Position numbers and translations under genes: made by a program. The notes beneath the pieces were generated by a model. That model was not told where the DNA came from. It saw only the letters and a program-made list of their open reading frames with translations, and did no database searches. Shown one piece after another: positions 5,821-37,880 of a stretch of 64,000 bases of DNA (position 1 is its first letter; every line of letters begins with the position of its first letter). The stretch spans positions 216,743 to 280,742 of the forward strand of contig JAJTXQ010000049.1 of assembly GCA_021462855.1 (NCBI GenBank). The letters run 5' to 3'. The DNA is from Dehalococcoidia bacterium (GTDB taxonomy: Bacteria > Chloroflexota > Dehalococcoidia > DSTF01 > JACRBR01).

Positions 5821-7272
5821 CTACTTCGCCGGGACGAACGCGTCCTCGCGGCGGGACTGCCAGCCGAGCAGGCGGACGATCGCCAGGGCGGCGGACTGCA
5901 CGCTGCTGAACGTCGCGAGGCCGCCGGCCGCCGCGTCTTCGAGGAAGACGAGCGTTGCCTCCATGCCGTTCGCCGACGTCGGATGTCGCGCCACGCCGAT
6001 GATCGGCTTGCCGGTCTCCCGCGACAGCTCGCCGAGCTTCGTCGCCTGCTCGCGCGCCATGGCCACGAAGTCGGGCATGCCCGGACGCATCGGCCCCCAG
6101 CCCCATGTCGTGTGGTAGATGACGTAGTCGATGTTCGGCGCGGACGCGACGATGCGGATCGTGTCGAGCATCGCCTTGTTGCCGTCGGGCCCCATGCCGA
6201 CGCTGGTGTCGACGGGATTGCGCACGCTCGTGCCGGCCGCCGGCGTAAAGTCGCGCAGTTGCTGCTGCGTCGGCTCAGGCAGGGCGGGCATCTGCAGGCC
6301 CGCTGCGCCGACTTCGTCGGACGCGAGCACGCTGTGGCCGCCGCCGCCGCCGACGATGCCGGCGCGCGGCCCGCGCAGGCCGCGCAGGAAGCGGGCGGCG
6401 ACGACCGAATCGATGAGCTCCTCCATGCGGTCGACGCGGATCGCGCCGGCCTGGCGCACCGCCGCGTCGAAGATCTGCAGCGAGCCGGCGAGGCTGCCGG
6501 TGTGCGAGTTCACCGCGCGCGTCCCCGCTTCGGTGCGGCCGCCCTTGAGGATGATGACCGGCTTGGCGGCGGCCGCCTTGCGCAGCGCGCGCATGAAGTG
6601 CGCGCCGTCGCGGATGCCTTCGATGTAGCAGGCGATGACGGACGTGGCCGGATCCTCGGCGACGTACTCGAGCAGCTCCGACTCGCGGACATCGGACCCG
6701 TTGCCGTAGCTGACGACCTTGCTATAGCGCAGGCCGCGCACGCTGCCGCTCCGGCAGAACTCGCCGGCGTTGGCGCCGCTCTGGGAGAGCAGGGCGATGT
6801 CGCCGGGCTCGGCCGGCAGGAATGGCATGAACGAGAGCCCGGACTCCGGCACGTAGAGGCCCATGCAGTTCGGGCCGATGACGCGCATCCCGAGTTCCTT
6901 CGCGCGGGCGAGGATGCGCGCCTCGAGCGCGGCGGCGTCCTCGTCGCCGGTCTCGCTGAAGCCCGCGGTGAAAAAGTGGATCACCTTCACGCCCTTGCGC
7001 CCGGCGTCCTCGACCAGTTGCTCGACGAATCGCAGCGGGACGCTCGAGATCACGTAGTCGACGTCGCCGGGAACGTCGCCCAGGCTCGGGTAGCACTTGA
7101 GGCCGTTGATCTCCTGCGCCTTGGGATTGACCGGGTAGAGGTCGCCCTTGAACCCCATCTGCTGGATGGCTTCGACAAACGAGCCGGGCCCCAGCGAGGT
7201 GGACGCGCCGACGACGGCGACGGAGCGGGGGTGGAACAGGTAATCGAGCGCGTCGAAAGAGCCTTCGGGCAT
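5821..7272 (-). CDS. Orphan CoA-binding protein, ADP-forming acyl-CoA synthetase alpha-like
   Basis: A 483-residue protein with the order seen in the alpha part of ADP-forming acetyl-CoA synthetases: a Rossmann CoA-binding domain (HPRSVAVVGAS near residue 15), a first flavodoxin-like succinyl-CoA-ligase domain (GPNCMGLY, LLSQSGANAG) and a second ligase domain. The phosphorylatable histidine is present in NSHTGSLAGS near residue 257. No ATP-grasp beta domain is fused and none lies beside it, so the energy-conserving half must be elsewhere or the protein has another CoA-related role. Start ATG 7272 has only a weak GGGGA upstream. Confidence 0.85.
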   Translation of the reverse strand: MPEGSFDALDYLFHPRSVAVVGASTSLGPGSFVEAIQQMGFKGDLYPVNPKAQEINGLKCYPSLGDVPGDVDYVISSVPLRFVEQLVEDAGRKGVKVIHFFTAGFSETGDEDAAALEARILARAKELGMRVIGPNCMGLYVPESGLSFMPFLPAEPGDIALLSQSGANAGEFCRSGSVRGLRYSKVVSYGNGSDVRESELLEYVAEDPATSVIACYIEGIRDGAHFMRALRKAAAAKPVIILKGGRTEAGTRAVNSHTGSLAGSLQIFDAAVRQAGAIRVDRMEELIDSVVAARFLRGLRGPRAGIVGGGGGHSVLASDEVGAAGLQMPALPEPTQQQLRDFTPAAGTSVRNPVDTSVGMGPDGNKAMLDTIRIVASAPNIDYVIYHTTWGWGPMRPGMPDFVAMAREQATKLGELSRETGKPIIGVARHPTSANGMEATLVFLEDAAAGGLATFSSVQSAALAIVRLLGWQSRREDAFVPAK

Positions 7273-7484
7273 GTGAATCGGTCCCCTCAGCGAGCGGCGG
7301 CGATCGAGCGGGGCCGCGGTCTGCTGGACATAAGTGCGCGGGATGCCGCCGTACGGCAGCCGTGCCGCATCGTAACGTGGCCCCCGTCCGCGGGCAAACG
7401 AGGCCAGCGCCTACGGCCCTGACAGGGAGTAAGGGTGCAGGCACCCGACATCGCCGGTCGCGGCGCGCGCGGATTCGGACCACC

Positions 7485-7511
7485 TCAAGAGCACCCCTAA
7501 GGGTGTCGAGC
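7485..7511 (+). promoter_or_regulatory. Predicted sigma-28-like promoter of the CAP-domain gene
   Basis: TCAAG (7485-7489), 16 bases, then TCGAGC (7506-7511) mirrors the TCAAG-16-CCGATGC arrangement before the ECF sigma gene. The -10 half is weak, so support comes mainly from the shared spacing and shared downstream leader. Confidence 0.35.
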
Positions 7512-7556
7512 ATTCCAGTGACGGATGGGGCGGGAGCCCCTAAGGGAATGCACGCA
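7510..7556 (+). promoter_or_regulatory. Structured leader element shared with the ECF sigma gene
   Basis: GCATTCC (7510-7516) pairs with GGAATGC (7545-7551). Inside it, GGGGC (7527-7531) and GCCCC (7536-7540) form a hairpin closed by a GNRA-type GGGA loop. The block 7532-7556 is almost identical to 12623-12648 before the ECF sigma gene. Function is unknown; a cis-regulatory RNA or protein site is inferred. Further upstream, 7273-7484 holds no recognisable gene. Confidence 0.4.
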
Positions 7557-7572
7557 CGCTGGGGGCTTCTTG

Positions 7573-8502
7573 ATGGACGACGACATCCGCCGGTCGTACT
7601 GGCAGCGCATCGCGAGCTCGCGGCGCGTGGGCGTGGCGTCCGTCTCGGCGATGGCGCTCGCCGTCGCAGCCGCGCTGGCGGCGCTCGGGTCGGCGACCGC
7701 GTCGGCTACGCAAGGACCGGCGGCGCCGACACCCACGCCCGTCACGACCGAGACGCCCGTCACGACCGAGACACCCGCCGCCACCACGCCGGCGCCCATG
7801 GGTGGGCCGGAGATCCTTTCAGGCTTCGGTTTGCCTCTGCAGTTCGCGTCCGGCGAAGCCGCGATCCTGCGCGCCATTATTGAGTTCACCGAAATCGCGG
7901 GCGCGCCAACCGCGACGGCGACGGCGCCGCTTCCACCGCCGCCGCCGCCCACGCCGACGCCGACCACGTCGCGTCCGGCCGCGCCGCCGCTGCCGACCGT
8001 CGCACTGCCTACGGCGGTACCGCCGACCGCGATTCCGCCGACGGCGACGGCTGTGCCGCCGACACCGGCGCCCGCGCCGTCATCGCTCGACACGTCGCCG
8101 ATGGATGCGTATGCGCGGAACCTGTTCGATTTGACGAACGCGAGGCGCGTCGCCGCCGGCCTGTCGCCGCTGCGCGAGAACGGTCTGCTCAACGGCATCG
8201 CGCGCATCCGCTCGGCGGAGATGGCGCAGTACAACTACTTCGCGCACGAGAGTCCGGTCACCGGCCACAACGCGTTCAGCCTGATGGACGTGCACGGTGT
8301 GCCTTATGCGTGGGCGGGAGAGAACCTGGCGAAGAACAACTACCCGGACGCCGAGGCGGTCGGGGTAGCGGAGCAGGCGCTCTGGGACAGCCAGGGGCAT
8401 CGCGAGAACACGCTCGGCCCGCACTACACCGACGTCGGCATGGCGCTGGTGATCGACGGCAGCGGGATGAAGTACTTCACGATCATCTTCACGGGGCCGT
8501 AG
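7573..8502 (+). CDS. Secreted CAP/SCP-domain protein with Thr/Pro-rich linker
   Basis: A 309-residue cell-surface or extracellular protein. An N-terminal hydrophobic segment (SAMALAVAAALAALGSATASA) serves as signal peptide or anchor. A long linker follows, rich in Thr, Pro and Ala, including a tandem TPVTTE repeat. The C-terminal 130 residues form a CAP domain: LFDLTNARRVAAGLSPL, AQYNYFAHESP, YAWAGENLAKN and the HRENTL signature. Bacterial CAP proteins are often cell-wall or matrix associated, but their activity is rarely known. The ATG at 7573 follows a purine run (GGGGGC). A shared promoter-leader block suggests co-regulation with the pilus genes downstream. Confidence 0.88.
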   Translation: MDDDIRRSYWQRIASSRRVGVASVSAMALAVAAALAALGSATASATQGPAAPTPTPVTTETPVTTETPAATTPAPMGGPEILSGFGLPLQFASGEAAILRAIIEFTEIAGAPTATATAPLPPPPPPTPTPTTSRPAAPPLPTVALPTAVPPTAIPPTATAVPPTPAPAPSSLDTSPMDAYARNLFDLTNARRVAAGLSPLRENGLLNGIARIRSAEMAQYNYFAHESPVTGHNAFSLMDVHGVPYAWAGENLAKNNYPDAEAVGVAEQALWDSQGHRENTLGPHYTDVGMALVIDGSGMKYFTIIFTGP

Positions 8503-8528
8503 CCCCGCGCTTATCCGAAGGCCGGAAT

Positions 8529-8556
8529 CGAGGGGGCGCCCATCGGCGCCCCTTCG
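8529..8556 (+). terminator. Hairpin terminator after the CAP-domain gene
   Basis: A 12-bp stem with one G-U pair (8529-8540 with 8545-8556) and a CATC loop follows the CAP stop by 26 bases. Only a weak T-rich tail (TTCGCGTT) is present. It also separates this gene from the convergent ATPase gene. Confidence 0.6.
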
Positions 8557-8627
8557 CGTTGCAAGCCGCGGGTGCGACGGCACGCGGGGCGCCGCGCACC
8601 TCTGCGCCAGGCCGGACGATGCGGGAG

Positions 8628-10049
8628 CTACGCCGCGGGCTCGAGTCCCGCGAACCGGGTCACGTTTTCGGGAGCGGTGAGCGATACGAAGTAGGAGTGG
8701 CACGCGGCATCGAGGTGGGCGCGCGTGAACGCCGGCTTCTCGCCGTGGTACGCGGCGATGTCGGCGACGAGGTCGACGATATCGCGCGGGTGGCAGCCCT
8801 TGAAGCCGCGCCCGGTCTGCACGTAATAGCGTTCGACCAGGTACTGCGCCGCCTGGGGGTCGATCTGCATCTCTCGCTGCTGGCAGACGCGCGACAGGAT
8901 CTCGAGGAACTGATCCCGCGTCGGGTCGGGGATCTCGATCTTGTGGCGGATGCGCCGGAAGAACGCCTCGTCGCCGAGCTGCGAGGGGTGCAGGTTCGTG
9001 GAGAAGATGAGCAGCACATCGAACGGCACTTCGACGACGTCGCCGGTGTGCAGCGAGAGGTGGTCGACGCGCTCCTCCATGGGCACGATCCAGCGGTTGA
9101 GCAGTTCCTTCGGCTGGATCATCTGCCGGCCGAAGTCGTCGACGATGAGGATGCCGCTGTTGGCTTTCCACTGCAGCGGCGCGATGTAGAACTGGGACTG
9201 CGGCGAATAGCGCAATTCGAGGTCCTTGAGCTGCAGCTCGCCGCCGACGCTCAGCATCGGCCGCCGTGCGACGACCCAGCGGCGGTCGCGGCGTCGCTCG
9301 ATGCCGGGCATGACGCCCGCATCGGCCCCGCGCCGGTCGCGCTGCTGGTCGAGCGGGATCTCGTTGTGCACGCGGGGGTCGAAGACCTTGACGATGATGC
9401 CGTTCAGGTCGACGGCGTACGGGATCAGCACTTCGCCCGGGAGCATGCGTCCGATCGCGGTCGTGATCGTGCTCTTGCCGTTGCCGGAGCCGCCGTACAG
9501 CAGCATCGACCGGCTCGAGTTCACGGCGGGGCCGAGCGCCCCGATGACGTCATCGGAGATCACGAGCTGGGACACGGCGGTCTTCACCGTGTCCGGCGTC
9601 ACGCGCATCGCGCGGATGGACTGCTTCTCGAGCACGGCCAGGTACACGGCGAACGGCACGGGCGCCGGGCCGATGTACTGGTTGCGGGAGAGCGCCTCTT
9701 CGGCCTTTTCGAACCCCTTGCTGGAGAGCGAGTACTGGTAGAGCTGCTCTCCCGTGCCGGACGACCCGACGACCTCGGCGAGTTGCTCGCGCTTGAGGAA
9801 CGTGAGCACTTCGTCGATCACCGGGAACGGCAGCGCGAGCTGCGCCGCGATCTGGCGCGCTGACGGCCGTCCGGCGAAGTAGATCGACTTGACGACGAGG
9901 TCGAGGATCATCGAGAGGTCGAGGCCCGTCTCCTCGATCGTCTGCGGCTGCGGGACGAACGGCGCGCCCTGCGCATCGCCGTGACCGTTGCCGTTGCCGT
10001 TCGATGCGGCGCCTGCGCGGACTTCGCCGCCCGCAATCTCGATGGTCAT
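8628..10049 (-). CDS. AAA+ ATPase with N-terminal winged-helix-like region
   Basis: A 473-residue cytoplasmic ATPase. The N-terminus has an Asn/Gly-rich start and then a helical segment resembling a winged helix (SARQIAAQLALPFPVIDEVL, SLSSKGFEKAEEALS). The AAA+ core has Walker A GGSGNGKST near residue 186, Walker B ILIVDDF near 299 and a sensor-1-like LLIFSTNL. ATG 10049 has GGAGAG upstream. It is divergent from a vWA-domain membrane protein, a pairing that recalls MoxR ATPases and their vWA partners, and it sits beside the Tad pilus operon. A role in assembling surface structures is inferred; the substrate is unknown. Confidence 0.8.
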   Translation of the reverse strand: MTIEIAGGEVRAGAASNGNGNGHGDAQGAPFVPQPQTIEETGLDLSMILDLVVKSIYFAGRPSARQIAAQLALPFPVIDEVLTFLKREQLAEVVGSSGTGEQLYQYSLSSKGFEKAEEALSRNQYIGPAPVPFAVYLAVLEKQSIRAMRVTPDTVKTAVSQLVISDDVIGALGPAVNSSRSMLLYGGSGNGKSTITTAIGRMLPGEVLIPYAVDLNGIIVKVFDPRVHNEIPLDQQRDRRGADAGVMPGIERRRDRRWVVARRPMLSVGGELQLKDLELRYSPQSQFYIAPLQWKANSGILIVDDFGRQMIQPKELLNRWIVPMEERVDHLSLHTGDVVEVPFDVLLIFSTNLHPSQLGDEAFFRRIRHKIEIPDPTRDQFLEILSRVCQQREMQIDPQAAQYLVERYYVQTGRGFKGCHPRDIVDLVADIAAYHGEKPAFTRAHLDAACHSYFVSLTAPENVTRFAGLEPAA

Positions 10050-10170
10050 GCACAGCTCTCCAGCACGCGCCTCGCCGTTGCGGTCGCGACGGCTCCCCGG
10101 GGCGGGGAGCGGCCGCGCTGACCGAAAGGCACGAGGGAAGAGCGGTGGCTCCCCCAAGTCCTCGACCTTA

Positions 10171-10177
10171 GTATCGG
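10171..10177 (-). promoter_or_regulatory. CCGATAC element upstream of the AAA+ ATPase gene
   Basis: On the minus strand CCGATAC occurs 121 bases before the ATPase start, the same heptamer as in the vWA and cpaB promoters. No matching TAAA or TCAA lies 15-16 bases further upstream, so this is the weakest member of the set. The predicted leader contains a 7-bp hairpin (10092-10098 with 10104-10110). Confidence 0.3.
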
Positions 10178-10214
10178 TATGGCGCAAGGAAAGTGGAGAT
10201 GCCGGGAAGGCAAC

Positions 10215-10353
10215 AAAAACGGCGCACCGCGTGCGCCGCGCATGGTTGCCGGTGAAACGGGTTGGGGCCAGGGGACGCCAGCCAGGCCCCGCCTCCTGAA
10301 CGCGCGTCCCCTGGACCCGTAGCCCCAACACAGGGCCTTCCCCTAGGGGAAGG
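10215..10353 (-). ncRNA. Candidate small RNA or attenuated leader with intrinsic terminator
   Basis: Read on the minus strand, this stretch has a perfect 18-base palindrome (10336-10353), then a long hairpin whose arms are 10322-10329 with 10260-10267 and 10304-10313 with 10269-10278, then an 8-bp hairpin (10231-10238 with 10220-10227) followed by five U residues. That is the layout of a short structured transcript ending at an intrinsic terminator. It ends before the ATPase promoter-like element, so it may be an independent RNA. No promoter for it is evident and I recognise no known family. Confidence 0.35.
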
Positions 10354-10427
10354 CGGGCGATGCGCGCGGACTACGGTCGCGCGGATCGCCGCATGGCCAA
10401 GCGCCGCCGACGGCGCGGCCCGCCGCC

Positions 10428-10454
10428 TCAATGCGGCCCTTCTTCGGCCGATAC
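10428..10454 (+). promoter_or_regulatory. Predicted sigma-28-like promoter of the vWA/FHA-like gene
   Basis: TCAAT (10428-10432), a 15-base spacer and CCGATAC (10448-10454) match the FliA/WhiG pattern of a TAAA or TCAA -35 and a GCCGATA-type -10. Transcription would start near 10461 and give a leader of about 160 bases. Confidence 0.45.
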
Positions 10455-10465
10455 TTATCAGTGAA

Positions 10466-10543
10466 ACAGCCCTTGCGGCTCCACCAGCACCATCTCGATG
10501 CCCCGCAAGGTGGGACGATTCTCCCATGGGCTCGGTGGGCTGT
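10466..10543 (+). promoter_or_regulatory. Multibranched structured 5' leader of the vWA/FHA-like gene
   Basis: Three helices can form in the predicted leader: ACAGC (10466-10470) with GCTGT (10539-10543) closes the element; CCTTGCGG (10471-10478) pairs with CCGCAAGG (10503-10510); TGGGA (10511-10515) pairs with TCCCA (10522-10526). Helices two and three abut without a linker, as in a three-way junction. It begins right after the predicted transcription start. The shape suggests a riboswitch or RNA operator, but I cannot assign a family. Confidence 0.4.
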
Positions 10544-10619
10544 CAAGAGGCCGAGGAAGCCTAACTTTACACGAAAAGACCGGGCGGATGATGTGCCGGG
10601 TGAAGCTGGAAGGCGAGCG

Positions 10620-12515
10620 TTGAACGTGCGCGTGGGCATCGCGCTGCTGGCCGTTGCGGCCGCGCTCTGCGGCGTCTTCGGCGCGCCGGCGGCGGCGCAG
10701 GAAGGCGCGCTCGGCCTGCAGGTGATCTCCGTTTCGGGCGACGCGTTCCCGTACGCGAAGGCGGTCGTGGCGATCGAGGACCAGGGCGGCGAGACGCCGC
10801 CGCTGGGCGCCGAGCAGTTCCGCGTGACGGTCGACGGGGCGCCGGCGCCCGTGCAATCCGCCGAGCTGGCGTCGAGTGACGCGGCGCCGCTCGACGCGCT
10901 CGTCGTGTTCGACACCTCGGGAAGCATGGAGGGCGCTCCGCTCGCCGCGGCGAAGGCCGCAGCGCACGCGCTGATCGCCGAGCTGGGGCCGCAGGACCGC
11001 GTCGCCGTCATGGAGTTCGGCGATGAGGTGCGTCTCTTGCAGGATTACACGGCGGACCGCGCAGCGCTCGCGGTGACGATCGATGGCCTGGTGGCGGCGG
11101 GCAACACGGCGTTGTACCAGGCGACGGCCGACGCCGCCGCGAGGGCGGCCGCCTCGACGGCGGCGCGCCGCGTCGTCGTGCTGCTGAGCGACGGCGCCGA
11201 CTTCGGCGGCCGCTCGCGCGCCACGCGGGAAGAGGCGACCACGGCGGCTGCGAACAGCGGCGTGCCGTTCTTCACGATCGCGCAGGGGACGGACCTGGAC
11301 CGGCCGTACCTCGAGTCGATCGCCGGGATCACACGCGGGCGCTTCCTCGAAGCGCCGTCGCCCGGCGATCTCGAGGCGCTGTACGCGGGCATCGGCCGGC
11401 TCCTGCGGAGCCAGTACGTCGTTCTGTTCGACGCGTCGGGCGCGCCGGCGAGCGATGTGACGGTCGAGATCAGCGTCGATGCGGGAGGGCGCACGGCGTC
11501 GGCGGCGAGCGCGCTGCACCTCGATGCAGCGTTCGCGCCGCAATTGATCGTGGAAGGTATTGCGCCGGGCGATTCGGTGGCCGCCGAGCGCGAGGTGCGC
11601 GTCACGACCGAGACGGGCGTCGCGCCGACGCGCGTCCGCTGGTATGTCGACGGCGCGCAGGTGTTCGAGAGCGTCGCCGCGCCGTTCGTCTACCGCTACG
11701 ACCCGCGGGAGGCGGGCGCCGGGGCGCGGACGATGCGCGTCGAAGCGGACTTTGGCCCGATCATGGCGGAGCGCGCGATCGAGTTCAGCGCCGCGCCGGC
11801 GGCGTCGGGTGGTGGCGGGTTCCCGCTGGCGCCGATCGCCGCGGTCGCCGCCGTCCTGGTCATCGGCGCGGCCGGCGCATGGTGGTTCGTCAACCGTCGG
11901 CGCAAGGGTGGCGCTCCCGCGGCCGAGCACCTGGCGCCGCTCACTGAGCAGATGAAGGCGGCAGCGCGGCGCGTCGTCATCCCGCAGCACGCAACCGAGA
12001 CGCCGGAAGCGGAAGCGATCGGCGAACCGATGGGGGTGTTGATCTCGCGCAGCGGCAGCGACATCGGCCGGGAGTACCTGGTCGGCGGCCGGCCGGTGAG
12101 CATCGGCTTCGGGGCGCTCTGCGGCGTGCGCGTCGATGACCCGGAGCTGGCGACCGAGGAGGCGCGCATCTGGGTGCGGGGCGGAAACCTGCTCGTGCAC
12201 CGCATGACTCGGCTGTCGGTCATCGCCGCCAATGGGGTGAGCGGCGGCTGGGTGATCCTCGAGCCGGGCGACACGTTCGATATTGGAGCGCACCGCTTCG
12301 AATTCAAGCTGCTGCCGGCCGGGGCGCCGGCGCCGGAGGCCGAAGCCGCGCCCGAGCCCGCAGCAGTGCCGAAGCGCGAGCGCAAGCGCAAGAAGCGGCC
12401 CGAAGCCCCGCCGGCCGTCGCCGAGTTGCCGAGCAACGTCATCCGCATGGCGGACCTGATGCCGAAGACCGACGGCGGCTTCACGCGGGAGGACCGCGAA
12501 CAAGAGGCGTCGTAA
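10620..12515 (+). CDS. Membrane protein with extracytoplasmic vWA domain and cytoplasmic FHA-like domain
   Basis: A protein of about 631 residues. After a signal peptide (GIALLAVAAALCGVFGAPAAA) comes a von Willebrand A domain with the metal-site motif DTSGS near residue 97 and LLSDGAD later. A beta-rich region and one membrane helix (PIAAVAAVLVIGAAGAWWFV, near 402-425) follow. The cytoplasmic tail has a domain resembling FHA (ISRSGSDIGREYLVGG onward) and a Lys/Arg/Glu-rich end. TTG 10620 is chosen because GGAAGG lies 5 bases upstream; GTG 10626 is possible. It could sense or bind surface components and signal inward. Its divergent AAA+ neighbour is a plausible partner. Confidence 0.82.
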   Translation: MNVRVGIALLAVAAALCGVFGAPAAAQEGALGLQVISVSGDAFPYAKAVVAIEDQGGETPPLGAEQFRVTVDGAPAPVQSAELASSDAAPLDALVVFDTSGSMEGAPLAAAKAAAHALIAELGPQDRVAVMEFGDEVRLLQDYTADRAALAVTIDGLVAAGNTALYQATADAAARAAASTAARRVVVLLSDGADFGGRSRATREEATTAAANSGVPFFTIAQGTDLDRPYLESIAGITRGRFLEAPSPGDLEALYAGIGRLLRSQYVVLFDASGAPASDVTVEISVDAGGRTASAASALHLDAAFAPQLIVEGIAPGDSVAAEREVRVTTETGVAPTRVRWYVDGAQVFESVAAPFVYRYDPREAGAGARTMRVEADFGPIMAERAIEFSAAPAASGGGGFPLAPIAAVAAVLVIGAAGAWWFVNRRRKGGAPAAEHLAPLTEQMKAAARRVVIPQHATETPEAEAIGEPMGVLISRSGSDIGREYLVGGRPVSIGFGALCGVRVDDPELATEEARIWVRGGNLLVHRMTRLSVIAANGVSGGWVILEPGDTFDIGAHRFEFKLLPAGAPAPEAEAAPEPAAVPKRERKRKKRPEAPPAVAELPSNVIRMADLMPKTDGGFTREDREQEAS

Positions 12516-12581
12516 ACGCGCCGCCAGGGCGCGCCGCGGGCCTCCTGCGGCCCGCATGCCGGGGTTGCGCCGGCCATCCAC

Positions 12582-12609
12582 TCAAGACAGCGCCCCCCAC
12601 TGCCGATGC
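12582..12609 (+). promoter_or_regulatory. Predicted sigma-28-like promoter of the ECF sigma gene
   Basis: TCAAG (12582-12586), 16 bases, then CCGATGC (12603-12609) fits a FliA/WhiG-type promoter. The leader would be about 95 bases and includes the block shared with the CAP gene. Confidence 0.45.
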
Positions 12610-12622
12610 TCATTGGGACGTA

Positions 12623-12648
12623 GGGAGCACCCGTAAGGGAATCACGCA
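12623..12648 (+). promoter_or_regulatory. Leader block shared with the CAP-domain gene
   Basis: Positions 12623-12648 match 7532-7556 except for two single-base insertions and one single-base deletion; both carry GGGAGC, TAAGGGAAT and CACGCA in order. In both places the block begins just downstream of the predicted transcription start. It may be bound by a protein or act in translation. Confidence 0.4.
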
Positions 12649-12710
12649 GGCGGCGCACCCAAGCGGATCTTCACGCGGACGTCCCGGCAGCAGGGGGAGT
12701 GCAACTGCCG

Positions 12711-13286
12711 ATGGTCAGCGCGAACACCGCCGTACCACGAGCCAATGACGATACGCCCATCGTGTTGCGCGCGATTCAGCGTGACCAGGAGGCGTTTGGC
12801 GAACTGTACGACCGCCACGTCGTCCGCGTGTACCGCCACATCTACTACATGGTGGGGAACGCCGCCGAAGCGGAGGACCTGACCTCGCAGACGTTCTTGC
12901 GGGCGTGGGAGGCGATCGACCGTTACCAGGTGCGGGGGGCGCCGTTCGTGTCGTGGCTGCTGCGCATCGCGCACAACCTCGGGGTGAGCCACCTGCGGGC
13001 GAAGCGCGAGACGTCGCAGGTCCACGAGGGCATCATCGACGACAAGCTGCCGCGGGACCCGGAGTGGGCGTACGCGCAGACCGCCGAGGAGGAGATGGTG
13101 CGGCAGGCGATCCTGGGACTGCGCGAGGAGCAGCGCCAGGTCATCCTCCTGCGATTCATCGAAGATTTAGATTACCGCGAAGTGGCCGACATTATTGGCA
13201 AGAGTGTCGCGGCGATCCGCGTCATTCAGCACCGCGCGCTCAATTCGCTGCGAAAGCAGATGAAGCTGCTCGACCCGGCGGTATAG
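12711..13286 (+). CDS. ECF-type RNA polymerase sigma factor
   Basis: A 191-residue group 4 sigma factor. Region 2 spans roughly residues 20-90 (FGELYDRHVVRVYRHIYYMV, AEDLTSQTFLRAW) and region 4 roughly 125-180 (LREEQRQVILLRFIEDLDYR and the helix-turn-helix VADIIGKSVAAIRVIQHRA). ATG 12711 is chosen: an in-frame GTG at 12699 abuts the GGGGGAG ribosome site too closely, while the ATG is 12 bases from it. No anti-sigma gene is adjacent, so control is probably at transcription or by an unlinked partner. It lies immediately before the Tad pilus operon and may regulate it. Confidence 0.93.
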   Translation: MVSANTAVPRANDDTPIVLRAIQRDQEAFGELYDRHVVRVYRHIYYMVGNAAEAEDLTSQTFLRAWEAIDRYQVRGAPFVSWLLRIAHNLGVSHLRAKRETSQVHEGIIDDKLPRDPEWAYAQTAEEEMVRQAILGLREEQRQVILLRFIEDLDYREVADIIGKSVAAIRVIQHRALNSLRKQMKLLDPAV

Positions 13287-13361
13287 GGGTTCCGGCGGGG
13301 GTGAGTGAGGTCTCCGGGCGCCGCACGGCCGCGCCGGGGGCAGGTTGGGGGTCCGGGGACA

Positions 13362-13388
13362 TAAAGCCGCGTCCCGAGTTTCCGATAC
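13362..13388 (+). promoter_or_regulatory. Predicted sigma-28-like promoter of the Tad pilus operon
   Basis: TAAAG (13362-13366), 15 bases, then CCGATAC (13382-13388). Counted as TAAA-N15-xCCGATA, this equals the textbook FliA/SigD/WhiG spacing and is the best of the set. It lies 52 bases before cpaB. Confidence 0.55.
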
Positions 13389-13439
13389 CTATACAGCCCG
13401 TTGGCAGGTAGCCAGATTCAGGACTTTGGGGGATACGCC

Positions 13440-14291
13440 ATGGCACGATCGATTGCGGCTTCGCAGGGGCGGACGAACCGGCGCTTCCTGTTCATCGCGT
13501 TGCTCCTCGCGGGGCTGAGCGCGGTGCTGATTTACGCGGTGCTCGCGCGGAACGGTTCCGGCGATGGGGGTGGTTCGAGCTCGTCTGGTCCGGGGTCGGC
13601 CGTTGTCGTTGCCCGGACGGCGATCAAGCAGAACACCGTCGTGACGGCGGAGATGCTGCAGCTGAAGGAAGTGCCGGCGGACGGCATCATCACGGGCGCG
13701 TACCTCGCGACGGAAGACGCCGTGGGCAAGGTGACGAAGTTCCCGATCGAGGCGAACCAGCAGGTCGTCGCGAGCTCGGTGATCGACCTCGAGAACCCGG
13801 CGTCGACCGACGCGCTGGCGGCGGTCGTGCCGGCGGGGCGCCGCGCGATCTCGGTCTCGGTGGGCCAGGTGACGAACGCCGGCGGTCTGATCTTGCCGGG
13901 CGACTTCGTCGACGTGGTGTGGACGTGCTGCGACGACAAGGAAGTCGTGGCGAAGACGATCCTCCGCAACGTGCAGGTCGCCGCGATCGCCCAGTCGAAG
14001 ATCGACAGCGGTCCGGCGGTCGGCGAAGGCAACACGAGCGGCCCGATCTCGGCCGGCGACGAAGAGCCAATCCCGGAGGCCGTGACGACGACGTTGCTGC
14101 TGACGCCGGACGAGGCGCAGGCGGCGGTCCTGGCCGAGCAGAGTGGCAAGCTGCGCTTCAGTCTGCGCGGTCTCGGCGACGAGCAGATCGTCGACCCGGA
14201 TTTCCTGCTCCTTACGGAGCTGCTCCCGGAAGCCGTCCTGGCGGGGCTGCCGGAGAACCTGAAGCCCGACGGCTACAAGCAGGAGCAGTAA
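13440..14291 (+). CDS. cpaB: Flp pilus assembly protein CpaB/RcpC
   Basis: A 283-residue CpaB/RcpC family protein, a periplasmic or cell-envelope component of Tad (type IVb) pilus assembly. One N-terminal membrane helix (FLFIALLLAGLSAVLIYAVLA, about residues 17-37) precedes a Gly/Ser linker and a SAF domain (VVVARTAIKQNTVVTAEML). The RcpC/CpaB region follows, with SVSVGQVTNAGGLILPGDFVD reshuffled in the usual way into VTTTLLLTPDEAQ and an acidic insert near residues 185-205. ATG 13440 has GGGGG upstream. It is the first gene of cpaB-cpaE-cpaF-tadB-tadC. Confidence 0.92.
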   Translation: MARSIAASQGRTNRRFLFIALLLAGLSAVLIYAVLARNGSGDGGGSSSSGPGSAVVVARTAIKQNTVVTAEMLQLKEVPADGIITGAYLATEDAVGKVTKFPIEANQQVVASSVIDLENPASTDALAAVVPAGRRAISVSVGQVTNAGGLILPGDFVDVVWTCCDDKEVVAKTILRNVQVAAIAQSKIDSGPAVGEGNTSGPISAGDEEPIPEAVTTTLLLTPDEAQAAVLAEQSGKLRFSLRGLGDEQIVDPDFLLLTELLPEAVLAGLPENLKPDGYKQEQ

Positions 14292-14346
14292 GGCAGAGGA
14301 TGTCTGGCCGGCCTGGCCGGTCCTGATGAGGCAGGAGACGTAGCCG

Positions 14347-15540
14347 ATGGCGCGAAATCCGGAGATCGTGACGGTAGACCCGGACCTCGGTAGCAGGGCC
14401 GAGACGAAGCGGGCGGCGCAGCTGGGCCACTTCACGGTGGTCGGCGAGTCCGGCTACGGCGTCGAAGCCGTGACCGTGGCCAAGGAGCACCACCCGGACG
14501 TCTTCCTCGTCGCGATGGAGGAGCCGGTGGCGCTGGCGCTCCAGACGATCGAGGCGCTCGCGGACGCGGTGCCAGCCGCGCCGGCGATCGTGTACTCCTC
14601 GCTCGCCGACGCCGGCTCGGTGCGCCGGGCGATGGTGGCGGGTGCGCGCGACTACATCGTGAAGCCGCTGAAGCCGGAGGACCTGAGCCGCGCCGTGTAC
14701 GGCGTGCTGGAGCAGGAAGAACGGAAGCGGCTGCGCGCCGACGGCCAGACGTCGGAGGCGCCGGCGCGCGGGACCGTGATCACCGTGTTCGGCGCGAAGG
14801 GCGGCATCGGCAAGACGACGATCTCGACGAACCTGGCGACGACGCTGGCGAAGATCACCGGCGCGAGCGTGTGCCTGCTCGACATGGACACGCGGTTCGG
14901 CGACGTGGCGATCATGATGGACGTGGCCGTGGAGGCGAGCATCGCCGACGTGGCGCGGCACATCGACGAGATCGATCGCGACAAGATCCGCGACTTCCTG
15001 GTCAAGCACTACAGCGGCGTGAGCATTCTGCCGGCGCCCCTCCACCCGACCGAGTGGCGGAACATGACGCCGCAGCACATCGAGAAGATCGTGGAGCTGC
15101 TGGCGCAGACGCACGACTACGTCGTCATCGACACGCCGGGCACGTTCAACGAGCTCATTGCGACCACGCTGGAGCTGGCAAGCCTGATCCTGCTCATCAC
15201 GAGCATGGATATCGCCAGCATCAAGGACACGGCGCTGGCGCTGGAGATGCTCCGCGCGGCCGCGGTGCCCGAGGACAAGGTGAAGCTGACGATCAACCAC
15301 TCGACCGCGGCGAACAGCCTGCGCGAGGAGGACGTGGCGCGGGTGCTGGAGTACGACGTGTTCTGGCGCATCCCGCACGACCTGAGTGTGTCGAGCAGCA
15401 CGCAGCTCGGCCAGCCGATCGTCGTCGCCAAGCCGTACGCGCGGGTGTCGCGGTCGATCATCGACCTGGCGCACACGCTGACGGGGACGCGACAGGAGAA
15501 GCGTGGATTCCTGGACCGGTTCCTGGGCCGGTCCGCGTAA
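14347..15540 (+). CDS. cpaE: Pilus localisation ATPase CpaE/TadZ
   Basis: A 397-residue protein with an N-terminal receiver-like domain (residues 5-120) and a C-terminal ParA/MinD ATPase (140-390). TadZ/CpaE proteins place the Tad machine at the pole or envelope. The deviant Walker A GAKGGIGKTT begins near residue 149 and VIDTPGTFNE marks the switch region. The receiver keeps the conserved Lys (IVKPLKPEDL), but the phosphoacceptor Asp at the end of strand 3 is replaced (LVAMEEP), so phosphorylation is unlikely. ATG 14347 follows GGAG at 8-9 bases. It is the second gene of the operon. Confidence 0.93.
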   Translation: MARNPEIVTVDPDLGSRAETKRAAQLGHFTVVGESGYGVEAVTVAKEHHPDVFLVAMEEPVALALQTIEALADAVPAAPAIVYSSLADAGSVRRAMVAGARDYIVKPLKPEDLSRAVYGVLEQEERKRLRADGQTSEAPARGTVITVFGAKGGIGKTTISTNLATTLAKITGASVCLLDMDTRFGDVAIMMDVAVEASIADVARHIDEIDRDKIRDFLVKHYSGVSILPAPLHPTEWRNMTPQHIEKIVELLAQTHDYVVIDTPGTFNELIATTLELASLILLITSMDIASIKDTALALEMLRAAAVPEDKVKLTINHSTAANSLREEDVARVLEYDVFWRIPHDLSVSSSTQLGQPIVVAKPYARVSRSIIDLAHTLTGTRQEKRGFLDRFLGRSA

Positions 15541-15581: not shown

Positions 15582-16937
15582 ATGAGTCAGTTCCAATGGC
15601 AGTCGAGGAAAACCCAGTCGGGCGGCGGCAGCGCGTTCAACAACCGCCCCGGCCAGCTCTCGCAGAACGTCATCGCGCTGAATGAGCTGAAATTCACGCT
15701 GCACCAGCGCCTGATCGAGGAGCTCGACCCGAACAAGCTCGATGGGCTGGGCAAGGACAAGGCGCGCGAGGCGGTCGAGCAGGCCGCGCGCACGCTCATC
15801 GCGCAGGAGATGCCGGGCATCGTCGGCACGACGCGGGACGAGCTCGTCTCCGCGGTGGCCGACGAGGTGCTGGGCTTCGGCCCGATCGAGCCGTTGCTCC
15901 GCGATGCGAGCATCTCGGAAGTGATGGTGAACGCTCCGGACACGATCTTCTACGAGAAGGAAGGCCGCCTGTACCTGAGCTCGGTGCGCTTCCGCGATGA
16001 CCAGCACATCATGCGCATCGTCGAGCGCATCGTCGCGCCGCTCGGCCGCCGCGTCGACGAGTCTTCGCCGATGGTAGACGCGCGCCTGCCCGACGGGTCG
16101 CGCGTGAACATCATCATCCCGCCCGTCGCGCCGAAGAGCCCGACGGTGACCATCCGGAAGTTCCGGACCGACAAGATGACGATCAACGACCTGGTCGCGA
16201 CGGGCGCACTGACGAACGAACTCGCGGAGTTCTTCCGCGCCTGCGTGATGGCGAAGCTGAACATCATCATCTCCGGCGGTACGGGTTCCGGTAAGACGAC
16301 GATGCTCAACGCCCTGTCGGCGTTCATCCCCGACACCGAGCGCATCGTCACGATCGAGGACCCGACGGAGCTCCAGCTCCAGCAGGGTCACGTCGTGACG
16401 CTCGAAGCGCGGCCGGCGTCGCTGGAAGGCCGCGGCGAGGTGACGCAGCGCGATCTCGTGCGGAACTCGCTGCGCATGCGCCCGGACCGCATCCTGGTCG
16501 GCGAGGTCCGCGGGCCGGAGGCGTTCGACATGCTCCAGGCGATGAACACCGGCCACGAAGGCTCGCTCGGCACGGTGCACGCCAACACGCCGCGCGACGC
16601 GCTCGCCCGCATCGAAAACATGGTGATGATGGCGGGGTTCGAGCTGCCGGTGAAGGCGATCCGGGAGCAGATGCAGTCGGCGATCCACGTCGTAATCCAG
16701 ATCGCGCGGTTCCAGGACGGCACGCGCAAGGTCGTGTCGGTGGCCGAGGTGTCGGGCATGGAAGGCCAGGTGGTGACGATGCAGGACCTGTTCCGGTTCG
16801 AGCAGACCGGCATCGACTCCGATGGCCGGGTGCTCGGCGAGCTTCGCACGACCGGCATCCGCCCGCGGTTCACAGAGAAGTTCGAGGTCTCGGGTATTCA
16901 CCTGCCCGCGGACCTGTTCGCACCAGCGGGGTTCTAA
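15582..16937 (+). CDS. cpaF: Tad pilus secretion ATPase CpaF/TadA
   Basis: The 451-residue type II/IV secretion ATPase that powers Flp pilus assembly. The N-terminal helical domain (to about residue 130) precedes the PilT-like core. Walker A GGTGSGKTT is near residue 232, Walker B is in LRMRPDRILVGEVRGPEAFD, and the GHEGSLGTVHANTPRDAL histidine box is typical of the family. The start has GGATGAGG a few bases upstream. Only one ATPase is present, as expected of Tad systems, where TadA drives both extension and retraction. Confidence 0.96.
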   Translation: MSQFQWQSRKTQSGGGSAFNNRPGQLSQNVIALNELKFTLHQRLIEELDPNKLDGLGKDKAREAVEQAARTLIAQEMPGIVGTTRDELVSAVADEVLGFGPIEPLLRDASISEVMVNAPDTIFYEKEGRLYLSSVRFRDDQHIMRIVERIVAPLGRRVDESSPMVDARLPDGSRVNIIIPPVAPKSPTVTIRKFRTDKMTINDLVATGALTNELAEFFRACVMAKLNIIISGGTGSGKTTMLNALSAFIPDTERIVTIEDPTELQLQQGHVVTLEARPASLEGRGEVTQRDLVRNSLRMRPDRILVGEVRGPEAFDMLQAMNTGHEGSLGTVHANTPRDALARIENMVMMAGFELPVKAIREQMQSAIHVVIQIARFQDGTRKVVSVAEVSGMEGQVVTMQDLFRFEQTGIDSDGRVLGELRTTGIRPRFTEKFEVSGIHLPADLFAPAGF

Positions 16938-16940
16938 GAT

Positions 16941-17909
16941 ATGGATCCGCTTGCAGCAGTAGCGGCAATCTCGGTCATGAGCACGGTCGTCGTGACACTG
17001 TTCGCATTTTACGGCGCGACGGTGCCCTCGGCCGTGGCGCGTGGCCGTCTCCAGGGCCTGATGTCCGGGACGTCGGTGGTCGAGGCGACGGCGCCCGGCG
17101 CGCTGCGCAAGTCCGGCGATGGCCCGTCGTTCTTGCAGGGGCTGGCCAAGGGCGCGGTCGGCGAGAAGCTGGAGCTCCAGCTGGAGCGCGCGGACCTGAC
17201 GATCAGCCCGGGCGAGTTCGTGTTCGCGCGGATCGCGCTGGCGCTGATCCTCGCCGTGGTCCCGGTGTTCGCGATCCCGAGCGTGATGGCGTACGCCGTC
17301 GCCGTTGCGGGCCTGGTCGTCGGCTACAACCTGCCGAAGATCTGGCTCAACCGGCGACGCAAGTCGCGTATCGACAAGCTCAACCAACAGCTGCCCGAGG
17401 CGCTGACGATCATCTCGAACGCGCTGAAGGCGGGGTTCGGCCTGTTGCAGGCGCTGAACAACGCGGCGGACAACCTGCCGCACCCCCTGTCGACCGAGCT
17501 CTCGCGCACGATCCACGAGATGAACGTGGGTTCGAGCGCGGAGGAGGCGCTGGTCGGGTTGAGCGAGCGCGCGGGCAGCTACGACCTGGACATCGTCGTC
17601 ACGGCCATCCTGGTGCAGCGCACGGTCGGCGGCAACCTGGGCGAGATCCTGGACACCGTCGCGGGGACGATGCGCGAGCGCATCCGCATCCGCGGCGAGA
17701 TCCAGACGCTGACGGCGCAGCAGAAGCTCACCGGCATCGTCATCGGCTTGCTGCCGGTCGGCGTCGGCGTGATGTTCCAGGTCCTGAGCCCCGGTTACGT
17801 GGCGCCGCTGTTCACGACGTTGATCGGCCAGATTCTGCTCGGCGCAGCCGCCGTCCTGGAGGTCGTCGGCGTGATGATCATCCAGCGCATCCTGAACATC
17901 GAGGTGTAG
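16941..17909 (+). CDS. tadB: Tad inner-membrane platform protein TadB
   Basis: A 322-residue integral membrane protein of the type II secretion F superfamily. An N-terminal helix (about 5-27), a central helix pair (about 93-130) and two C-terminal helices flank the cytoplasmic F domain (LNQQLPEALTIISNALKAGF, NLGEILDTVAGTMRERIR). With TadC it forms the platform on which the ATPase acts. It starts three bases after cpaF stops and stops three bases before tadC, so translational coupling is likely. Confidence 0.92.
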   Translation: MDPLAAVAAISVMSTVVVTLFAFYGATVPSAVARGRLQGLMSGTSVVEATAPGALRKSGDGPSFLQGLAKGAVGEKLELQLERADLTISPGEFVFARIALALILAVVPVFAIPSVMAYAVAVAGLVVGYNLPKIWLNRRRKSRIDKLNQQLPEALTIISNALKAGFGLLQALNNAADNLPHPLSTELSRTIHEMNVGSSAEEALVGLSERAGSYDLDIVVTAILVQRTVGGNLGEILDTVAGTMRERIRIRGEIQTLTAQQKLTGIVIGLLPVGVGVMFQVLSPGYVAPLFTTLIGQILLGAAAVLEVVGVMIIQRILNIEV

Positions 17910-17912
17910 CTG

Positions 17913-18836
17913 ATGGACCCTCTCGCACTGATTACCTCGCTGGTTATCGCGGGCGCCGTGCTGGCGTTCTTCCTGGGATTCGCCGGACAGCGTGACCGCG
18001 GCGCGGTCGTCGCGCGCCAGCGGCTCGAGTCGTTCAAGCGCGGGGCTGCCGAGCCCGGGGCGCCCGACGAACGGGCGGGCGTGGGCACGCGCGTCATCGG
18101 GCCGGCGCTCCGCGGCGCCACGCGCACGCTGGGAAATCTGCTGCCGAAGTCCATGCTCAGCGGCGTGGAGCGCAAGCTCATTACCGCCGGGGAGCCGATG
18201 ACGATCAGCGGCTTCCTGACGATGCTCCTGCTCACGAGCACGGGGTCGGTGGGGTTCGGCTTCCTGATCGTGATCGCGATGGGCGGCACGTTCGGCGCCA
18301 TGCAGATCGGCGTGATGTGCATGCTCGCGGCGATCGGCTTCTACCTGCCGTTCTACATCGTCGCGTCGCGGGCGCGGCAGCGGCAATCGGCGATCATCAA
18401 GTCGTTGCCGGACGCGTTCGACCTGATCACGACGTGTGTCGAAGCGGGGCTCGGCCTGGACGCCGCGCTCTCGCGCGTGGCCGAGAAGGTCCAGGGTCCG
18501 TTCTCCGACGAGCTCTCGCGCTCGCTGCGCGATGTCGCGCTCGGGAAGTCGCGCAAGGAAGCGCTGAAGGAGCTTGGCGAGCGCACCCAGGTGCCGGACC
18601 TGATCCAGTTCACCAACGCCGTGATCCAGGCCGAGACGATGGGCTCATCGGTCGGCCAGGTGCTGCGCGTGCAGGCGGACCAGCTCCGCGTGCGGCGCCG
18701 CCAGCGCGCCGAGGAACAGGCGTACAAGGCGCCGGTGAAGATGCTCTTTCCGCTGGTGCTGTGCATTTTCCCGACGCTGTTCATCGTCATCCTGGGCCCG
18801 GCGGCGATCACGATCATGCAGGGCTTCCCGACGTAG
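17913..18836 (+). CDS. tadC: Tad inner-membrane platform protein TadC
   Basis: A 307-residue second type II secretion F-domain protein. It has an N-terminal helix, a helix pair near 95-150 and a C-terminal helix ending GPAAITIMQGFPT. The F domain shows IIKSLPDAFDLITTCVEAGL and LIQFTNAVIQAETMGSSVGQ. It is the last gene of the visible Tad operon. No Flp pilin, TadE/TadF pseudopilin, prepilin peptidase or secretin is nearby; an outer-membrane secretin would not be expected in a monoderm. Confidence 0.92.
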   Translation: MDPLALITSLVIAGAVLAFFLGFAGQRDRGAVVARQRLESFKRGAAEPGAPDERAGVGTRVIGPALRGATRTLGNLLPKSMLSGVERKLITAGEPMTISGFLTMLLLTSTGSVGFGFLIVIAMGGTFGAMQIGVMCMLAAIGFYLPFYIVASRARQRQSAIIKSLPDAFDLITTCVEAGLGLDAALSRVAEKVQGPFSDELSRSLRDVALGKSRKEALKELGERTQVPDLIQFTNAVIQAETMGSSVGQVLRVQADQLRVRRRQRAEEQAYKAPVKMLFPLVLCIFPTLFIVILGPAAITIMQGFPT

Positions 18837-36377: not shown

Positions 36378-37880
36378 TCACGCCGGCGCGAAGATGTTCC
36401 GTCCGTCCTTGCCGCGTGCGACCGTGCCCTGCGTGCCCACCATTTCGCGCTTCGTCATCGACTCGAGGAGGCGCCGGTCGTCGGGCGTGTTGGCGATGAA
36501 GCGCGCGCCCGATTCTGTGCGGCCAATGATGATCGCGCGCTCCGGCGCGTCGCGGCCAAACAGCACGGTGTAGGTCTCGACGGTCGCCGGCCCGGCCGGT
36601 GTCTCATCGAGCGGCGGATGGGGCTCGGCGTCGACGCGCGCCTGGTCGGGCTTCGGGTCGCTGCGCGCCCACGGCCGCTCGGGCGGGCGGCATGAATAGA
36701 TGCCGATGGAGTGCTTCGTGACGTGCCAGCCGTTCGCCGTGACGAGACCAAAGGCGCCGCGGTCGCCGCGCAGGCGCTCGACCATGGATGCGATGCTGTG
36801 GCTCACGTAGTTATTGCCCGGGCCGCCGAAGTAGGGCAGGCCGCCGGTCACGGTCAGCGGGCGCGGGTCGTCGTGCGGGATGCCGAGCGCGTCGCGCGTG
36901 ATCTGGACGGCCGACGGGAAGCACGAGTACAGGTCGAAGTGGGCGATGTCGGCCACGGTGACGCCGGCCATCGCAAAGGCGCGCTGTCCGGCGGCGGCGA
37001 TTGCCGGCGAGGAGTGGTAGTCCACACGCTCGGTGATGAACCAGTGGTCGTTGGCGTCTCCGCAGCCATGCAGGTACACCCAGCGATCCTCCGGCACGCC
37101 GAGGCGCCGCGCCTCGCCGGCGCTCGTCATGAGGATCGCCGCACCCTGGTCGACATCGATGATCGAGTTCATGAACTTGGTGTACGGGAAGCCGATATAG
37201 CGGTTGTCCGTCGTCGGCGTGGCGATGGTGTGCGCGCCGCGCGCTTCGCGGAACCAGGCGTGCGGGTTGCCGGCGGCGACGGCGCTGAATGGCGCCATGA
37301 GTTCGCCGAGCGCGCGCTGGTGTTCCTCGATCGTGCGGCCGTAGTGCGCGCGGAGCGCGTTCTCGAACAGCGGGTAGATCTGCGCCGGCAGGGCGGCGCC
37401 GTGCGCGACTTCGTGCGGCGTCGAGCCGGGGCGCGTGTCGCCGACGTCGGGCGCCGGGTTGCCGCGCGGCGACCACGCGAGGTCGATGCCCTGCTGGCGG
37501 GCGCGGCGGGCGGAGTACACGGCGTCGGCGCCGGCGATGAGGACGAGGCTGGCGTCCCCGGCATGGATGGCGGCGGCCGCGTCGTTCACCATCCACTGCG
37601 GGCCGTTGCCGCCGACGGCGGTGTACAGCTGCTCGCGCGGGGCGACGGCGAGCGCGCGCGACAGGTCGTGCGCCGGCGCGCGCGACGGCCACGACAGGAC
37701 GTTGATCACGCGCAGCGAGTCCAGCGCGTGCAGGAGGTCGCCTGCGCCGGCATCGGCCTCGGCGGCGCGCGCGGCATCGGCCATGAGCGCGAGGGGCTCG
37801 CGCGGGCGCTCGGCGCCGGGACGCTGCGTCACCTGCCCGACGCCGATGATCACGGGCAGGAGGTCGTCGTTCTGTGGCAT
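36378..37880 (-). CDS. Thiolase-superfamily protein (acetyl-CoA acetyltransferase-like)
   Basis: A 500-residue protein resembling the long acetyl-CoA acetyltransferase-like family of lipid and acid catabolism. The first thiolase half runs from VIIGVGQVTQRPGAERPREP; the C-terminal part carries GGPGNNYVSHSIASMVERLR with the expected His. The segment that normally holds the nucleophilic Cys reads GGNGPQWMVNDAA here, so classical thiolysis is doubtful. ATG 37880 is preferred over GTG 37898; neither has a clear ribosome site. Confidence 0.85.
   Translation of the reverse strand: MPQNDDLLPVIIGVGQVTQRPGAERPREPLALMADAARAAEADAGAGDLLHALDSLRVINVLSWPSRAPAHDLSRALAVAPREQLYTAVGGNGPQWMVNDAAAAIHAGDASLVLIAGADAVYSARRARQQGIDLAWSPRGNPAPDVGDTRPGSTPHEVAHGAALPAQIYPLFENALRAHYGRTIEEHQRALGELMAPFSAVAAGNPHAWFREARGAHTIATPTTDNRYIGFPYTKFMNSIIDVDQGAAILMTSAGEARRLGVPEDRWVYLHGCGDANDHWFITERVDYHSSPAIAAAGQRAFAMAGVTVADIAHFDLYSCFPSAVQITRDALGIPHDDPRPLTVTGGLPYFGGPGNNYVSHSIASMVERLRGDRGAFGLVTANGWHVTKHSIGIYSCRPPERPWARSDPKPDQARVDAEPHPPLDETPAGPATVETYTVLFGRDAPERAIIIGRTESGARFIANTPDDRRLLESMTKREMVGTQGTVARGKDGRNIFAPA

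Follow-up and report, generated by a model that had tools for sequence, protein, structure and literature searches.

Promoter-like sites at a Tad pilus and surface-protein locus of a Dehalococcoidia bacterium (contig JAJTXQ010000049.1) very probably serve RNA polymerase carrying a sigma factor of the FliA/WhiG type (group 3, sigma-28). Five such sites, located upstream of genes for CpaB, an ECF sigma factor, a von Willebrand factor A (vWA) domain protein, an AAA+ ATPase and a CAP-domain protein, lie in the 64,000-nucleotide stretch analyzed here, which is called the window. Judged from comparative sequence analysis, promoters of this class would drive Tad, surface and cyclic di-GMP (c-di-GMP) genes. 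Two FliA/WhiG-type sigma genes, sigA and sigB, are encoded in the same genome. Beyond what an earlier sequence-only reading of the window had proposed, the predicted regulon reaches c-di-GMP enzymes, and sigB itself is predicted to be under the control of a c-di-GMP-I riboswitch.

All five sites occur where the sequence-only reading had placed them (Table 1). When spacing is counted from a -35 tetramer, TNNA, to an 8-base -10 box, the spacer is 15 bases at cpaB, vWA and AAA+, which is the sigma-28 spacing, and 16 bases at ECF and CAP. The flagellar consensus TAAA-N15-GCCGATAA is also the one used for WhiG (PMC8325347). Scores against the spaced consensus, which can reach 11.2, are 10.0 for cpaB, 9.7 for vWA, 8.4 for ECF, 8.0 for AAA+ and 6.9 for CAP. 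A score of at least 9.7 is reached by three window sites (cpaB, vWA and one at 37172), where 0.18 are expected in first-order Markov shuffles. On this window-only scoring the ECF, AAA+ and CAP sites are not outstanding. The earlier caution about chance similarity was therefore apt for evidence from a single genome, since only cpaB and vWA among the named sites beat chance. The comparison with shuffled sequence that it had called for divides in the same manner: the spaced motif exceeds shuffles at high scores, but bare CCGATAC does not (5 seen in the window versus 6.2 expected). A search of the genome for TMAA-N15/16-GCCGATRC likewise gave five matches versus four in a reversed control. Because site frequency alone is inconclusive, conservation carries the case. 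The high-scoring site at 37172 (+ strand, score 9.7) reads TGAA-N15-GCCGATAT.

Conservation was assessed in the window's genome (G000, 3.0 Mb) and its order, which is represented by 18 genomes (G000-G017) in four families, with the window in family f1. Most of the genomes are metagenome-assembled, with completeness of 54-99%. Tad loci were located via CpaB in 30 genomes. At the first Tad locus, the site before cpaB scores 9.7-10.7 in 15 of 17 order genomes and 9.2 in the other two, which make up family f3, and shuffled upstream regions equal these scores in 0-2.5% of trials. Most sites lie no more than 140 bases from the matched part of cpaB; the site in G011 is farther away only because the match starts late. 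A second type of Tad locus lacks a consistent site and thus provides a negative control. Ten of its 11 upstream regions do not stand out (p 0.3-0.95); the other one, in G008, reaches p 0.035 with a site 390 bases away.

The gene order CoA-ligase-like, CAP, AAA, vWA, ECF, cpaB, cpaE is mostly kept in relatives, so that the other sites can be compared at orthologous positions. There, the ECF, AAA, vWA and CAP sites are kept within family f1 and, in part, outside it. Forms related to the ECF site of the family occur in G008, G009, G010 and G011, and the relatives' vWA forms given in Table 1 are found in families f1 and f4. The CAP form occurs in several genomes, and a variant, TCAA-N16-GCCGATAT, is present in G012 and G017. 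For cpaB, pairwise identity within the family is 1.00 in the -35 box, 0.34 in the spacer, 0.94 in the -10 box and 0.36 upstream. The corresponding values for the -35 box, spacer and -10 box are 0.94, 0.39 and 0.86 at ECF, 0.85, 0.45 and 0.91 at AAA, and 0.81, 0.53 and 0.93 at vWA. Over these four sites the -35 boxes are thus 81-100% and the -10 boxes 86-94% identical, compared to 34-53% for spacers and 28-40% for upstream flanks; rows were picked by motif, which inflates box identity, and the contrast with spacers and flanks is the informative part. Spacers this diverged indicate that the genomes are distant enough for box conservation to mean selection.

Sigma region 3 is found in four proteins of the window's genome, two of them RpoD-like and two of the short FliA/WhiG type. 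The latter, sigA and sigB, contain Pfam sigma-70 regions 2, 3 and 4 and lack RpoD's long region 1 (the class is about 250-270 amino acids long). Their nearest structures are Streptomyces venezuelae WhiG and then Escherichia coli FliA. Mutational work on E. coli FliA identified R74, D81, R84 and R91 as residues that read the -10 box, and every sigA and sigB sequence has the same residues at the aligned positions. Both genes are found throughout the order. In a phylogenetic tree, each forms a well-supported, order-specific clade apart from WhiG, FliA and a Tepidiforma-type pair; they also stand apart from the FliA-type genes of flagellated relatives, which form long branches of unsure placement. 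The sequence-only reading had made its case depend on a group 3 sigma factor, and this type is encoded twice. Its proposal that a flagellar/sporulation-class sigma factor controls Tad pili gains computational support from these two genes and from the motif before every first Tad locus.

FlhA was not found in any of the 18 order genomes. Four genomes from other orders (G019, G020, G021 and G024) do have it, and in all four it lies no more than about 2 kb from a FliA-type gene. Because FlhA is missing in the whole order, a role of sigA and sigB in flagellar regulation is unlikely.

Tepidiforma-type and 'Anaerolinea sp.' genomes (L224, L225, L226 and L222) carry TGTAG-N-CCGCCGATATAGCAAGGG or a near form before cpaB, with a score of 8.4, and encode one or two FliA/WhiG genes over the cut-off. 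Their sites represent a related yet different promoter class.

Each of ten sigB loci scanned with Rfam has a c-di-GMP-I aptamer ahead of the gene that exceeds the gathering score (56.7-81.2 bits), and a genome search also places it before sigB in G010, G012, G013, G015 and G016. It is present in three of the four families (f1, f2 and f4), wherever sigB was found; in the incomplete genome G005 neither was found. The best model is the c-di-GMP-I-GGC variant for eight of ten leaders and the standard model for the other two. In this riboswitch class G20, A47 and C92 (Vc2 numbering) contact the ligand. The sigB leaders contain GGCAAAC, CGCAA and CCGAA segments, and their key bases look standard by eye. 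Between the aptamer and the sigB start, a hairpin followed by a T-rich stretch is clear in G001, G002 and G008 and weaker in G000 and G003, while in G006 and G007 the interval holds a different stretch that is able to pair with the ribosome binding site. Downstream of sigB, the next codirectional gene is assigned by Pfam to an HD-GYP protein in G000, G002 and G008; similar proteins were identified by position in G003, G006 and G017, with G014 as an exception. No c-di-GMP riboswitch was found at sigA, in the window, or at the FliA-type loci of relatives that are Tepidiforma-like or flagellated; an Rfam scan of window positions 7000-14500, which include the CAP, ECF and cpaB leaders, returned sub-threshold chance matches only. 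Apparent sigma-28-type sites upstream of sigB coincide with riboswitch sequence and were discarded as signs of autoregulation.

The same class of site is found before c-di-GMP enzyme genes. A promoter model made from 21 spacer-15 sites was searched over the 18 genomes. The cpaB sites ranked at the top, as members of the training set, and four of the six best non-training matches (E<0.1) precede c-di-GMP enzyme genes. Pattern searches added sites before HD-GYP genes in G013 and G017, before CAP genes in G012 and G017, before a TasA/camelysin-like gene in G012, and before one GGDEF gene in G000, where there are ten GGDEF domains. The matrix scan proposed by the sequence-only reading has in this way yielded further sites before GGDEF, EAL and HD-GYP genes.

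In three cases (L283, L280 and L260), a sigma-28-type promoter and a riboswitch lie about 25-60 bases apart on one transcript. The window's genome has two c-di-GMP-I riboswitches in all, and the second precedes a long leader and a secreted-protein gene. ATCAG-N-GCCGATGT lies just upstream of it, and similar sequences occur before riboswitches in G003 and, in looser form, in G006.

From these elements we infer a circuit in which sigA or sigB reads the sites and the level of c-di-GMP sets the output of sigB via the riboswitch in its mRNA leader. The terminator-like hairpin, or the masking of the ribosome binding site, that often follows the aptamer would provide the means, as either an ON or an OFF switch. 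The sigB protein, with or without sigA, would transcribe the first Tad operon from cpaB onward. One or both factors, with some division of labor, would also drive the ECF sigma, vWA, AAA+ and CAP genes and those for c-di-GMP synthesis and breakdown, whose products may feed back on c-di-GMP. It is rather likely that the circuit is closed and that some targets (TadE-like, TasA-like) are doubly gated, with c-di-GMP acting on the supply of sigma factor through the sigB riboswitch and on the mRNA leaders of these targets through a second riboswitch.

Several observations weigh against assigning the sites to a sigma-28-type polymerase. The last base of the -10 box is C or T (GCCGATAC), not A, and the conserved cpaB-class promoter TAAAGC-N13-GCCGATAC, found in the genome that encodes sigA and sigB, departs from the GCCGATAA consensus at its final base. 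The ECF and CAP sites deviate further, with a spacer of 16, GCCGATGC and TCGAGCA; some sites may belong to a second promoter class or sigma factor. Family f3 (G009 and G011) has a degenerate cpaB site and a sigB gene with no riboswitch match. No sigma-28-type site, and hence no self-regulation, is seen upstream of sigA. The apparent absence of flagella was judged from FlhA, the one flagellar marker searched. Finally, two of the six best non-training matches precede an alanine-dehydrogenase-like gene (named by eye) or fall apparently inside a coding region.

The deviations of ECF and CAP could be accommodated by a refinement that does not contradict a FliA/WhiG-type assignment. Two overlapping regulons, with sigA and sigB on slightly different promoters and only one of them controlled by c-di-GMP, have somewhat less than an even chance of being correct. 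A division of the sites into a cpaB/AAA/vWA class (spacer 15, CGATAC) and an ECF/CAP class (spacer 16, GCCGA plus other bases) is proposed just as tentatively. Each orthologous site retains its own spacing and variant within the family, sigA and sigB form old, separate clades, and the riboswitch is on sigB and not sigA, all of which would fit two regulons; the residues at the positions by which FliA reads its -10 box are nevertheless the same in both proteins. It is improbable that the boxes are read by some other sigma factor, either of the RpoD/group 2 kind or the ECF factor encoded at the locus, or bound by a transcription factor, with convergent likeness to sigma-28 promoters. An ECF gene does lie inside the cluster, group 1/2 sigma factors are present in the genome, and the final base of the -10 box is not the expected A. 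However, the spacing and both boxes fit the flagellar consensus, two FliA/WhiG sigma factors are conserved along with the sites in genomes without FlhA, and the same site class precedes c-di-GMP enzyme genes, as in Rubrobacter. Chance likeness, with a common heptamer picked out by eye in GC-rich DNA, deserves almost no credence: it would account for the window-only counts, but it is refuted for cpaB, ECF, AAA and vWA, with CAP the weakest case, by position- and spacing-specific conservation over 17 genomes with diverged spacers and by the paralogous cpaB genes without a consistent site.

The genes served by the predicted FliA/WhiG-type promoters in the window are listed in Table 1. RcpC/CpaB, a CpaE-like ATPase, CpaF (T2SSE) and TadB/TadC (T2SSF) are encoded in one operon, which identifies the Tad locus. 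The ECF sigma factor downstream of its own sigma-28-type promoter is nearest to the BldN family, and a sigma cascade resembling that of Streptomyces development genes is possible. Between the vWA promoter and its gene (10540-10580), TGTCAAGAGGC...CTTTACACG is kept in G003 and partly in G002; this stretch is possibly a regulator site or a second promoter. A CCC-TAAGGG motif common to the CAP and ECF leaders is not kept consistently and was dropped.

Table 1. Predicted promoters, genes and riboswitches. Positions without a genome label refer to the window; promoter entries are predictions.
Feature	Position	Strand	Details
cpaB/Tad operon promoter, sigma-28-type	13362..13388	+	TAAA-N15-TCCGATAC; in all 17 order genomes with the locus, degenerate in f3
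ECF sigma gene promoter, sigma-28-type	12582..12609	+	TCAA-N16-GCCGATGC; TCAAGC-N14-GCCGAT kept in f1
vWA gene promoter, sigma-28-type	10428..10454	+	TCAA-N15-GCCGATAC; relatives TCA(A/G/T) or TGAA-N15-GTCGATAC
AAA+ gene promoter, sigma-28-type	10171..10197	-	TCCA-N15-ACCGATAC; TCCAGCTTT-N-CCGATAC kept in f1
CAP gene promoter, sigma-28-type	7485..7512	+	TCAA-N16-GTCGAGCA; relatives TCAA-N16-GCCGA(G/C)CA; weakest of five
sigA, FliA/WhiG-type sigma gene	G000:C35:104701-105510	+	TIGR02479 194.2 bits, above cut-off 189.6
sigB, FliA/WhiG-type sigma gene	G000:C64:101512-102201	-	TIGR02479 best family, 180.3 bits, just below 189.6
c-di-GMP-I riboswitch, sigB leader	G000:C64:102325-102401 (L131:6325-6401)	-	RF01051 72.3 bits
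Second c-di-GMP-I riboswitch	G000:C33:56526-56613 (L272)		before long leader and secreted-protein gene
Promoter and riboswitch transcript	L283, G014		TadE-like gene; promoter score 9.7
Promoter and riboswitch transcript	L280, G012		TasA-like gene; promoter score 10.7
Promoter and riboswitch transcript	L260, G019 (another order)		Flp pilin gene; promoter score 10.5
Site before GGDEF gene (pattern search)	G000 C13:72992-73018	-	training-set member
Non-training model match	G008:C2		before HD-GYP gene
Non-training model match	G003:C1		before HD-GYP gene
Non-training model match	G004:C36		before PAS-GGDEF-EAL gene
Non-training model match	G011:C38		before PAS-GGDEF gene
Non-training model match	G000:C30		before alanine-dehydrogenase-like gene
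Non-training model match	G015:C172		apparently inside coding region
cpaB/rcpC, first Tad operon gene	13440..14291	+	Pfam RcpC 84.9 bits, SAF
cpaE-like gene, Tad operon	14347-15540	+	next after cpaB
T2SSE/cpaF gene, Tad operon	15582-16937	+	Pfam T2SSE
Two T2SSF genes (tadB, tadC)	16941-17909, 17913-18836	+	Pfam T2SSF
ECF sigma factor gene	12711..13286	+	nearest NCBIfam model BldN family, 140.6 bits, below cut-off 206
Secreted/membrane vWA-domain protein gene	10620..12515	+	Pfam VWA
AAA+ ATPase-type gene	8628..10049	-	473 amino acids; Walker-type sequence by eye; no Pfam match
Secreted CAP/SCP-domain protein gene	7573..8502	+	Pfam CAP

The separate parts of this system have precedents. In Clostridium difficile, the c-di-GMP-I riboswitch Cd1 precedes the flgB operon, which includes sigD, and turns the operon off (PMC5386303). 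There, too, a class I aptamer occupies the leader of an mRNA from which a sigma-28 factor is made, but that transcript is an early flagellar operon, whereas here the sigma gene comes first, is usually followed by an HD-GYP gene and belongs to an order without FlhA. In Bdellovibrio, control of a TAD operon by FliA was tested with reporters in E. coli, so that a flagellar sigma factor again drives a Tad/Flp pilus operon; unlike the factors described here, that FliA also serves flagellin promoters, and the excerpted text of the report describes no riboswitch on the sigma gene (PMC5430801). Type IV pilus genes of Actinoplanes are under FliA-family sigma factors as well, in an organism that, by contrast, is also flagellated and for which the account in PMC8325347 reports no link to a c-di-GMP riboswitch.

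Rubrobacter offers a further parallel. In this genus WhiG and RsiG control type IV pili, and flagellar-type promoters were confirmed by transcript mapping (PMC8325347). As proposed here, a FliA/WhiG-type sigma factor has no flagellar role, its promoters precede pilus genes and several c-di-GMP synthase and phosphodiesterase genes, and c-di-GMP sets its activity. The systems differ in that c-di-GMP acts there via the anti-sigma factor RsiG and here would act via a riboswitch in the sigma mRNA, and in that the Rubrobacter pili are pil-type and actinobacterial (PMC8325347), compared to the Tad pilus of Chloroflexota. The RsiG signature consists of one or more E-x3-S-x2-R-x3-Q-x3-D motifs in a coiled coil. 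An exact-motif DNA search, made in G000 only, gave five matches (one in the control) and no convincing candidate; read codon by codon, several fail to match the motif and none looks coiled-coil-like, although frames were not fully examined and a diverged RsiG is possible.

A search of an open-license library found no report in which Tad pili are joined to a FliA/WhiG sigma gene bearing a c-di-GMP riboswitch, nor any that describes such a link in Chloroflexota. Thus, Rubrobacter WhiG-RsiG, Bdellovibrio FliA-TAD and C. difficile Cd1-sigD supply precedents for the parts, and the combination is new. It would mean that a flagellar-class sigma factor has been retained by a lineage apparently without flagella and reassigned to Tad pili, and it gives an uncultured Dehalococcoidia order a testable predicted regulon. 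The WhiG pattern of Rubrobacter would then extend to Chloroflexota, with a riboswitch in the sigma mRNA replacing RsiG as the c-di-GMP input. Such a circuit suggests an older, or more frequently re-invented, connection between c-di-GMP, flagellar-family sigma factors and surface appendages than was thought.

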